Shown one piece after another: positions 23,695-57,736 of a stretch of 64,000 bases of DNA. The DNA is taken from NCBI RefSeq assembly GCF_030936135.1, contig NC_082600.1, forward strand, positions 3,286,001 through 3,350,000, read 5' to 3'. Numbering within the stretch: the first letter of the stretch is position 1; each line of letters starts with the position of its first letter. The notes under the pieces were generated by a model. That model had not been told where the DNA came from. It made no database searches and worked only from the letters and a program-made list of their open reading frames with translations. The position numbers and the translations under genes were made by a program. The DNA is from Gavia stellata (Eukaryota > Chordata > Aves > Gaviiformes > Gaviidae).

Positions 23695-54529
<30,835 letters not shown>

Positions 54530-54802
54530 GGTGCCGCCGCCCGCTCCGACCGACGGCGCTCCCGGCAGCCCCGCCGCGCGCCCCGCGCCTGCGCCAACGC
54601 CCCGCTACGGGTCGCGCCGTGCGCCAATTCTCTCCGCTCCGCGGCAGCGCGCTCGCCGCCTCCCGCGCATGCGCTGAGCCGCGGATGGGGGGGCGGGCGG
54701 GCGGAGGCAGCGGGCCGCGTTGCGGTGGTGTGCCGGCAGGAGGCGGTAGCGTGCGCGTGTGCGGGGTGCGGCGCGGGGCAAAAGCGGTCGCGGGGTGTGT
54801 CA
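54530..54802 (-). promoter_or_regulatory. NEMF: CpG-island promoter of NEMF with NRF1 palindrome
   Basis: Very CpG-rich DNA directly upstream of the NEMF ATG and only about 270 bp long before the 3' end of a 7SL gene. It contains the NRF1-type palindrome GCGCATGCGC at 54665-54674 and a CCAAT core at 54624-54628 (inverted relative to NEMF). There is no TATA box. Confidence 0.75.
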
Positions 54803-55104
54803 AAAGGAGCCCGCGTCTCTCTGTGTTGCCCAGGCTACGCTGCAGTGGCTATTCACAGGCGCGATCCCGCTACTGACCGGCACGGGAGCTTTGACCTGCT
54901 CCGTCTCCGACCTGGGCCGGTTCACCCCTCCTTAGTCAACCTGGTGTGCCCCGGCTCCCCGGGGCTCACCATATTGATGCCGGCCTTAGCGCGGACGCCC
55001 GCTCGGCATAGCGCACTGCAGCCCAGAACTCCTGGGCTCAAGCGATCCGGCGGGCTCAGCCTCCCGAGTAGCTGGGACTACAGGCGCGCGCCACCGCGCC
55101 CGGC
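54803..55104 (-). ncRNA. RN7SL: 7SL (SRP) RNA gene, copy 1, nearest NEMF
   Basis: The reverse complement begins GCCGGGCGCGGTGGCGCG and follows vertebrate 7SL RNA through both the Alu and S domains. Landmarks: CTGTAGTCCCAGCTACTCGG, GATCGCTTGAGCCCAGGAG, then GGAGGGGTGAACCGGCCCAG, GGAGCAGGTCAAAGCTCC, GATCGCGCCTGTGAATAGCC and GCCTGGGCAACACAGAGAGA. It ends in TTTT (complement of 54803-54806), a Pol III terminator, at 302 nt; human 7SL is about 299. 7SL scaffolds SRP, which pauses translation and targets signal-peptide-bearing ribosomes to the ER. Its Alu-domain hairpin is closest to human of the three copies, so it is the likeliest main gene. Confidence 0.95.
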
Positions 55105-55161
55105 GCTCACCGCCTCGCGCTGCCGCCTCTACTGCCGTCACACCGCCCGGGGACAGCTCGG
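55105..55161 (-). promoter_or_regulatory. Upstream Pol III promoter of 7SL copy 1 with CRE-like site
   Basis: In transcript orientation TGACGGCA (complement of 55133-55140) lies about 30-36 bp before the RNA start. It resembles the ATF/CREB site that drives human 7SL, although that one lies somewhat further upstream. The rest is GC-rich until the C/T tract begins at 55162. Confidence 0.45.
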
Positions 55162-55872
55162 TCCCCTTCCCCTTCCCCCTTCCCCTTCTCCCTTTCTCCT
55201 TCCCTTTCTCCTTCCCTTTCTCCTTCTCCTTCCCCTCCCCCTTCCCCTTCCCCTTCCCCTTCCCCTTCCCCTTCCCCTTCTCCTTCCCCTTCTCCTTCCC
55301 CTTCTCCTTCCCCTTCTCCTTCCCCTTCCCCTTCTTCCCCTTCCCCTTTCCCCTTCCCCTTCTTCTTCCCCTTCCCCCTTCCCCTTCCCCCTTCCCATTC
55401 CCCCTTCCCCTTCTCCTTCTTCCCCCTTCCCCTTCTCCTTCTTCCACCTTCCCCCTTCCGCCTTCCCCTTCCCCCTTCCCCTTCCCCTTCCCCCTTCCCC
55501 TTTCCCCTTCCCCTTTCCCTTTCCCCTTTCCCCTTCCCCTTTCCCCTTCTCTTTCCCCTTTCCCTTTCCCCTTCCCCTTCCCCCTTCCCCTTCCCCCTTC
55601 CCCTTCCCCCTTCCCCCTTCCCCTTCCCCCTTCCCCTTCCCCCTTCCCCTTCCCCTTTCCCCTTCCCCTTTCCCCTTCCCCTTTCCCCTTCCCCTTTCCC
55701 CTTCCCCATTCCCCTTTCCCCTTCCCCTTTCCCCTTTCCCCTTTCCCCTTCCCCCTTCCCCTTTCCCCTTCCCCCTTCCCCTTTCCCCTTCCCCCTTCCC
55801 CTTTCCCCTTTCCCCTTCTCCTTCCCCCTTCCCCTTCTCCTTCCCCCTTCCCCTTTTTCCCCTTCCCGCCCC
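55162..55872. repeat. About 0.7-kb pure pyrimidine (C/T) repeat tract
   Basis: Almost unbroken CCCCTT/CCTTCCCC-type hexamer repeats with TTC and TCC variants. The + strand is essentially all C and T, and the minus strand all G and A, for about 700 bp. Only a few interruptions occur (for example single A or G near 55398, 55445, 55459, 55706). Long open frames of Pro/Ser/Phe/Leu or Gly/Lys/Glu across it are artefacts. Confidence 0.97.
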
Positions 55873-55876
55873 CCCA

Positions 55877-56280
55877 GCACACACTCACATTGTACCTGCT
55901 GAGAGGGCAGCCGGGCTCTGAGCTGGTGGAGGACAGGGAGCCCCTTCCAGGGCAGCCGGCACCCCCTCAGCACAAACCCCAATTTTGTTGTTTCTTACGT
56001 GATTTGGGGTTTGCTGCCAGGGCCTCACGGTGGGATCTAGCTGGGGGCCAGCGGAGGATCGGGGGCATCTCTTTGATGAAGGAATTTCTTTAAAAGAGTG
56101 TTTCTGGGCCCCCTCCCTCCCCTTTAGAAACATCTTTTTTTCCCTCTGTTCCTCTCTCTTCCCCCAGAGAAGCCCCCGTGAGATGTGGTCGCCGCTCCTC
56201 TGTCCCGGCTGGGATTCCTCGGTTGTGTCGGTGCCGCTCGTGCCTCAGCGTTAATAGATCCCGATCCCTCGCTTCCACGC
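55877..56280. other. Interval between C/T tract and 7SL copy 2
   Basis: No gene recognised. Moderately GC-rich unique-looking sequence; a C/T-rich patch lies at about 56107-56166. Confidence 0.5.
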
Positions 56281-56582
56281 AAAAGGAAACTGGGTCCCGC
56301 TCTCTCGCCCGGGCTGTGCCACAGGGACTGTTCACAGGCGCCATCCCGCTACTGATCAGCACAGGAGCTTTGACCTGCTCCGTCTCCGACCTGGGCCGGT
56401 TCACCCCTCCTTAGGCGACCTGGTGGCCCCCGGCTCCCCCAGGACCACCATATCGATGCTGAACTTAGCGCGGACGCCCGCTCGGCACAGCTCGCTGCAG
56501 CCCAGAACCCCCGGGCTCAAGCCGTCCACCAGTTTCAGCCTCCCCGGCGCTTGGATTACAGGCACAAGCCACCGTGCCCGGC
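56281..56582 (-). ncRNA. RN7SL: 7SL (SRP) RNA gene, copy 2
   Basis: Reverse complement begins GCCGGGCACGGTGGCTTGTG and keeps the full 7SL layout: Alu domain, S domain with GGTCGCCTAAGGAGGGGTGA, and the 3' arm. It ends in TTTT (complement of 56281-56284), giving 302 nt. Compared with copy 1, the Alu-domain hairpin reads TGTAATCCAAGCGCCGGGG instead of TGTAGTCCCAGCTACTCGG, a change shared with copy 3. It has private changes (TTCAGCATC, GGCTGAAACTGGTGGA) near positions that are constant in copies 1 and 3, so it may be less active or decaying. T-rich DNA (GAAAAATA) lies just upstream of the start. Confidence 0.88.
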
Positions 56583-57435
56583 TATTTTTCAGGATTTTGC
56601 AGATTCCCGACATCCATCCTGTGCGGGCTCTGCCCGGCCACACAGTGGCAGTGGGGAACTGAGACACCATCCTTGGGCTGCTTGTATTTTATGTTTAAAA
56701 ATGGGTGGATGGATACACAGGAAAGATTTCTGAGCACAAGCAGGTTTAAGCAGCTGAGAAAGCCCAGACTTCTTGTTTTGAGCGAGAAGAGGCACATCAT
56801 TATGCTCTATTTTCCTTTTAAGCCAAGTGAGGTGCATCAGGCAGCTCTACCTCCAGGACAGCTCAGTACGCTTCATTTACTGAAGAGCAGATAAGAGATG
56901 TCTCACTCCCTGCTTTGAAATACTCCTCACAAAAAAGGCTTCTTGATTTGCCAGTGTTTTGCCAAGAGTGTAAAGCTCAGAGCTGAGGACACAAATGAGC
57001 TGTGACAGTAAATACCTGACGGAGCAGACTAATGAGACACTCCTGAGAGCCGGAGCCCCAGCTCGGTCTGGGGCGGGCTGCCTAAGCCAGCAGTGTTTGA
57101 GGGATGCTTATTGACTCACTGGTGTGCAGCGTCTCTGAGCCAGAAACACGATGGGAAATTCTGCTGCCCGTCATTTCCCATTTTAGTAGTTATATCTATT
57201 GGGATCCCAAAGGTCTGGCTGGGTCCCGCACTGCGGCCCTTTCACCGCTGCAAGAAATCACAACACACGCCACCAAAACATGAGTACGCCTGAGCGAGCA
57301 AGGCTGGGGCGGCATCTTCAGGTCGAACATCTGTGGGAGATGCTTTTGCCTTTCCCCAGTATTACTTGACCCTTTTGTGATCGCTCCCCGACACAGACAG
57401 CTGACAAGCGCAGAGTCGTGCGGGGGAAAGATGCC
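56583..57435. other. Spacer between 7SL copies 2 and 3
   Basis: About 850 bp with no recognisable gene or repeat. It should contain the upstream promoter of copy 2 (56583-56700) and the 3' flank of copy 3. Confidence 0.5.
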
Positions 57436-57736
57436 AAAAGAGGCTGGGTCCCGCTCTCTCGCCCAGGCTGTGCTACAGGGACTGTTCACAGGCGCCATCC
57501 CGCTACTGACCGGCACGGGAGCTTTGACCTGCTCCGTCTCCGACCTGGGCCGGTTCACCCCTCCTTAGGCGACCTGGTGGCCCGCGGCTCCCCCAGGACC
57601 ACCATATCGATGCCGGCCTTAGCGCGGACACCCGCTCGGCACAGCTCGCTGCAGCCCAGAACTCCCGGGCTCAAGCCGTCCGCCAGCCTCAGCCTCCCCG
57701 GCGCTTGGATTACAGGCACAAGCCACCGTGCCCGGC
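57436..57736 (-). ncRNA. RN7SL: 7SL (SRP) RNA gene, copy 3
   Basis: Reverse complement begins GCCGGGCACGGTGGCTTGTG and spans the whole 7SL RNA, ending in TTTT (complement of 57436-57439) at 301 nt. It shares the altered Alu-domain hairpin with copy 2 but keeps the normal GGCTGAGGCTGGCGGAC and GGAGTTCTGGGCTGCAG stretches. The S domain (AAGGAGGGGTGAACCGGCCC) is intact. It looks able to fold like SRP RNA. The upstream flank is GC-rich with no clear CRE site. Confidence 0.92.

Follow-up and report, generated by a model that had tools for sequence, protein, structure and literature searches.

The signal recognition particle (SRP) has 7SL RNA as its scaffold, and both CRE-like and TATA-like upstream elements matter in the promoters of 7SL genes. 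Retro-inserted 7SL copies are common in mammals. For the human map, we take the distance between ARF6 and RN7SL1 to be far greater than 50 kb, and RPPH1, which shares a table cell with RN7SL genes in one of the sources below, to lie at 14q11.2. The sections consulted of one source describe the 7SL promoter as mixed, with internal and upstream parts, and trace primate Alu elements, along with further 7SL-derived SINEs, back to 7SL (PMC10498592). Regarding the human genes, and in the excerpts available to us, one table cell puts RN7SL2, RPS29 and RN7SL1 at 14q21.3 together with RPPH1 (PMC11209625), RN7SL is assigned to 14q21 (PMC4924754), a single browser panel contains RN7SL2 and RN7SL3 (PMC10854548), and POLE2, RPS29, MGAT2 and ARF6 are treated as cis genes of RN7SL1 by a 50-kb criterion (PMC10999094). 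In the portion of Gardner et al. 2015 that we used, the human genome has 941 SRP RNA annotations, chicken has 4 SRP RNA loci and the mean of 48 birds is 3, and SRP RNA is counted among the classes with a majority RNA-seq confirmed; positions, classes and neighbours of the avian loci are absent from that portion (PMC4378963).

We scanned the whole window (the 64-kb stretch of DNA analysed here) with the Rfam model of metazoan SRP RNA (RF00017, gathering score 70 bits). Three matches were obtained at the gathering threshold, each covering model positions 1-299 and all on the minus strand: c1 (class A; 54805-55104; 269.8 bits), c2 (class B; 56284-56582; 252.0 bits) and c3 (class B; 57438-57736; 246.4 bits). 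Chance similarity as their source is ruled out by the E-values (2e-73 to 1.2e-66). A TTTT terminator run is present in 4/4 full-length copies, counting a fourth gene, c4, found outside the window (see below), and the S-domain stretch GGTGAACCGGCCCAGGTCGGAGACGGAGCAGGTCAAA is the same in all four. The three genes in the window lie upstream of NEMF, on the same strand and pointing towards it. A tblastn search with the presumed human N-terminus placed the first five blocks of NEMF at 50983-54529 (minus strand), within which the Pfam domain NFACT_N scores 34.1 bits at 51125-51253 (cut-off 31), the sole place reported for this domain in this genome. The NEMF ATG lies at 54529, leaving a gap of 275 bp to the 3′ end of c1.

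The preliminary description had seen three full-length, same-strand 7SL sequences with TTTT terminators, the first about 270 bp upstream of the NEMF ATG, and all of this is borne out. The model body measures 299-300 nt, so that its length of 301-302 nt would take in part of the TTTT run. The tandem trio stands as an arrangement but not as three equal copies, as c1 matches c4 over 432 bp and c2 and c3 belong to a diverged class without the tested upstream elements.

To place these genes in their genomic context, RF00017 was searched against all 1185 contigs (1.32 Gb), with the best 26 of 23684 first-look candidates scored; the resulting counts are lower bounds for this reason. At least four loci exceeded the cut-off (4/5 among the matches listed). 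The additional full-length gene c4 (class A) is located at C7:3201530-3201829 on the plus strand (269.8 bits, positions 1-299), and a decayed copy (L005; C2:15951748-15952031) matched RF00017 below the cut-off. A DNA search with c3, again with the best candidates scored, returned the same four full-length genes and a decayed partial copy (L027; C5:20705566-20705709). In both decayed copies the BLASTN similarity to c1 stops near 7SL position 206-208, so that the 3′ third seems to be missing. An exact 7SL pattern gave 0 matches in non-vertebrate viral and genome contig collections, which has no bearing on synteny.

The start of c4 lies 226 bp from the RPS29 ATG, and with c4 on the plus and RPS29 on the minus strand the two form a divergent pair; Pol II and Pol III promoters therefore share a short stretch. 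This gap (L001 1274-1501) holds a TGACGTCA site. The distance from c4 to the NEMF-side trio is 139 kb, in opposite orientation. We surveyed 230 kb around the window (72 undetermined bases) by tblastn and Pfam, POLE2 and KLHDC2 being outside the query set, and found the order RPS29 (−, two exons), c4 (+), LRR1 (+), MGAT2 (+), DNAAF2 (−), a Kelch gene (+) and NEMF (−), followed by c1, c2 and c3 (−) and then ARF6 (+). Pfam matches above their cut-offs in the block were MGAT2, LRR1, PIH1 (DNAAF2), NFACT_N, Arf and Ribosomal_S14. The Kelch gene, which we take to be KLHDC1 from its likeness to the presumed protein start, reached 16.5 bits for Pfam Kelch, far under the cut-off of 50. RPL36AL went unmatched by tblastn across the 230 kb, and Pfam gave nothing for a frame that we had suspected of being SOS2. 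Within the window, two direct copies of a 300-nt repeat (98% identity; start-to-start distance 5003 bp) at 33937-39239 enclose long plus-strand frames, one with a weak Pfam match to DUF7900 under its cut-off; this element resembles an endogenous retrovirus and is located 3′ to the NEMF exons that we identified.

From its sequence and surroundings, we regard it as likely that this is an old two-site 7SL locus in which c1 and c4 are the likely main genes, while c2 and c3 form a constrained side class that is perhaps silent now. The old arrangement would consist of one 7SL gene next to RPS29, in divergent orientation to it, and, 139 kb away and inverted, three more upstream of NEMF; both sites would predate the bird-mammal split. 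RNA polymerase III would transcribe the genes from an internal and upstream promoter and stop at TTTT. Gene conversion would keep c1 and c4, the putative main active genes, alike, while c2 and c3 would derive from an earlier local duplication of DNA and would have been fold-selected for much of their life.

The upstream regions separate the two classes. c4 has all three tested CRE-like and TATA-like elements, namely TGACGTCA at -50, TGACGGCA at -36 and TAGAGG at -27, and c1 has two of them, TGACGGCA from -36 and the TATA-like TAGAGG from -27 (55105-55146, minus strand); the full TGACGTCA of c4 is absent upstream of c1. None of TGACG, CGTCA, TAGAGG or TATA occurs in the 200 bp upstream of c2 or c3. 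Because the tested elements are absent there, we file c2 and c3 as SRP RNA family sequences rather than as proven active genes. A pyrimidine tandem array of the CCCCTT type (~700 bp; 55162-55867) lies directly upstream of c1, and the identity between c1 and c4 stops before it.

The missing elements favour reading c2 and c3 as pseudogenes, that is, dead tandem copies that look intact through late death or patching by conversion, and the divergence of class B bears on the same question. c2 and c3 differ from each other at 17/299 positions, and from c1 at 54/299 and 45/299 positions, respectively, each with one additional gap. The presumed human 7SL sequence differs from c1 at 34/299 positions and from c2 and c3 at 55 and 51 (of 298); class B is thus farther from c1 than this human sequence is, a distance that may reflect age or speed. 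Despite these 54 and 45 differences there is no net loss of pairs, which speaks against dead copies: the family structure has 120 pairs, of which 103 form in c1, 105 in c2, 104 in c3 and 101 in the presumed human sequence. When the substitutions of c2 or c3 were placed at random on c1, 0/10,000 runs reached the observed pairs for either gene. The path from c1 to c2 includes 12 compensatory changes and 4 broken pairs, that from c1 to c3 8 and 4, respectively. As the simulations start from c1, not the true ancestor, some compensatory changes may have arisen in class A. Compensatory changes also occur between c2 and c3 themselves, again contrary to the pseudogene reading, with 4 such changes and 1 broken pair from c3 to c2 and the pair count reached in 18/10,000 random runs. 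Conversion could, however, likewise yield paired changes.

The decayed copies served as a control for the pairs inside 7SL positions 4-206 only, the 3′ part of the C2 alignment being non-homologous. The C5 copy pairs at chance level (14/21 pairs; reached in 5001/10,000 runs), but the C2 copy does better than chance (29/34; 90/10,000). Over the same positions, c2 forms 32/34 pairs (0/10,000) and c3 31/34 (8/10,000). The control is therefore mixed, and the contrast of class B with decayed copies is weakened.

Predicted folds point in both directions. Within the first 48-49 nt, pairing of helix 4 is predicted with a probability of 0.01 for class B vs 0.38-0.52 for class A, while that of helix 2 is predicted with 0.41 vs 0.28. 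Pairs of the 5′ fold of the Alu domain (helices 2, 3 and 4) can form in both classes, and the Alu-domain loop is altered in c2 and c3; near position 35, class B has a loop shorter by one base. In full-length minimum-energy folds, c1 has Alu-domain helices 2-4, and c2 and c3 are without helices 2 and 4, which, together with the low helix 4 probability, again favours dead copies. Stability compared with shuffled sequences gave z scores of -5.51 (c1), -3.87 (c2) and -3.52 (c3), and 0, 0 and 1 out of 200 shuffled versions, respectively, reached the same stability. A table row for chicken also lends the pseudogene reading some weight: 2 (50%) of the 4 SRP RNA loci are given as RNA-seq confirmed, in an excerpt read apart from its column headings (PMC4378963). 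This count would fit two active and two weak genes, and the excerpt does not say which loci are meant. Weighing both sides, we consider pseudogenes a serious candidate, though one we somewhat doubt, and in our view selection on the RNA fold has acted on class B over much of its history.

A stronger version of this view would be that the NEMF site of birds holds a second functional class of 7SL RNA, its S domain intact, its Alu domain changed and its fold kept by selection. This appears unlikely to us; if true, the second class would give an SRP with different elongation arrest or act outside the particle.

In class A, the gene bodies of c1 and c4 are identical at 300/300 positions, and the tract identical to c4 extends over 432 bp (42 bp upstream, the gene and 90 bp downstream; 54715-55146, minus strand). 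The BLASTN alignment as a whole spans 435 bp with 1 mismatch, and the flanks beyond it are without a match at E 1e-3. This suggests recent gene conversion between inverted copies, the best reading because inverted copies that are 139 kb apart in unlike surroundings share identical margins with sharp ends. The same 432-bp identity would fit a short copied insert equally well, in which case c1 would be a recent duplicate of c4 inserted beside NEMF, c2 and c3 would be the sole old residents, and the RN7SL3-like position of c1 would be coincidental. Yet the distance from c1 to the NEMF ATG is 275 bp, which puts c1 near the place that we presume for human RN7SL3, and BLASTN finds ~25 bp upstream of c3 that resemble class A in a gapped alignment, although a MAFFT alignment of the upstream regions shows little of this. 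We consider such an insertion improbable and retain gene conversion between old residents as the preferred explanation.

That c1, c2 and c3 were retro-inserted is the least credible reading. We reject it because there is no A-tail (A runs in 60 bp reach 1-2 nt at most), because flank repeats that might mark a target-site duplication do not exceed chance length (the longest common flank word is 5-6 nt, the lengths that turned up most often in 2000 random draws) and because the genes stand in tandem on one strand within the gene block where they are expected; both decayed copies identified are on other contigs (C2 and C5). Its one point of support, that the similarity of c2 and c3 stops no more than a few bases from either transcript end, would also be expected of old tandem copies with drifted flanks. 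Recent retro-insertion with A-tails and target duplications, which the preliminary description had itself named as the finding to look for against its claim, thus left no sign.

That claim was a synteny predating the split of birds and mammals. We take the gene order and strands of the block at human 14q21.3 to be the same as in the bird, with RN7SL3 and RN7SL2 presumably directly upstream of NEMF and c1 near the place of RN7SL3; RPL36AL, which we believe to be part of the human block, is the one departure of the bird block. The claim is upheld insofar as the arrangement is real, free of signs of retro-insertion and set in a block of the presumed human order; its human side is a map that is largely presumed. 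The human sources cited above support this map weakly, since the table cell with the RN7SL genes also contains RPPH1 and the 50-kb criterion takes in ARF6. As the neighbours appear to be the same as in human, the 7SL address is probably older than the bird-mammal split, judged from this genome and that map. The case is stronger than in the preliminary description because the RPS29 side also holds a 7SL gene. A 7SL synteny with NEMF or RPS29 was not found in titles and abstracts of mostly open-access literature, and it may well be in print. To the origin of Alu elements from 7SL, which is already established, the present locus adds nothing beyond the address.

Compared with the avian SRP loci of Gardner et al. 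2015, in the part consulted, the pattern of few copies per bird is found here as well (PMC4378963). If the RPS29 and NEMF addresses date from the amniote ancestor, the address could tell working 7SL genes from other matches in mammals. The locus would further exemplify concerted evolution of inverted copies 139 kb apart, with the order of the interval seemingly held, and variant SRP RNAs in birds would become testable if the second class is indeed constrained. As with human RN7SL1, RN7SL2 and RN7SL3 at 14q21.3, in the excerpts of the human sources at hand, the bird 7SL genes lie in a block with RPS29, MGAT2 and ARF6. In contrast to the three human genes, which we take to be nearly identical to one another, the NEMF site of the bird has a divergent class, with c3 differing from c1 at 45/299 and c2 at 54/299 positions.
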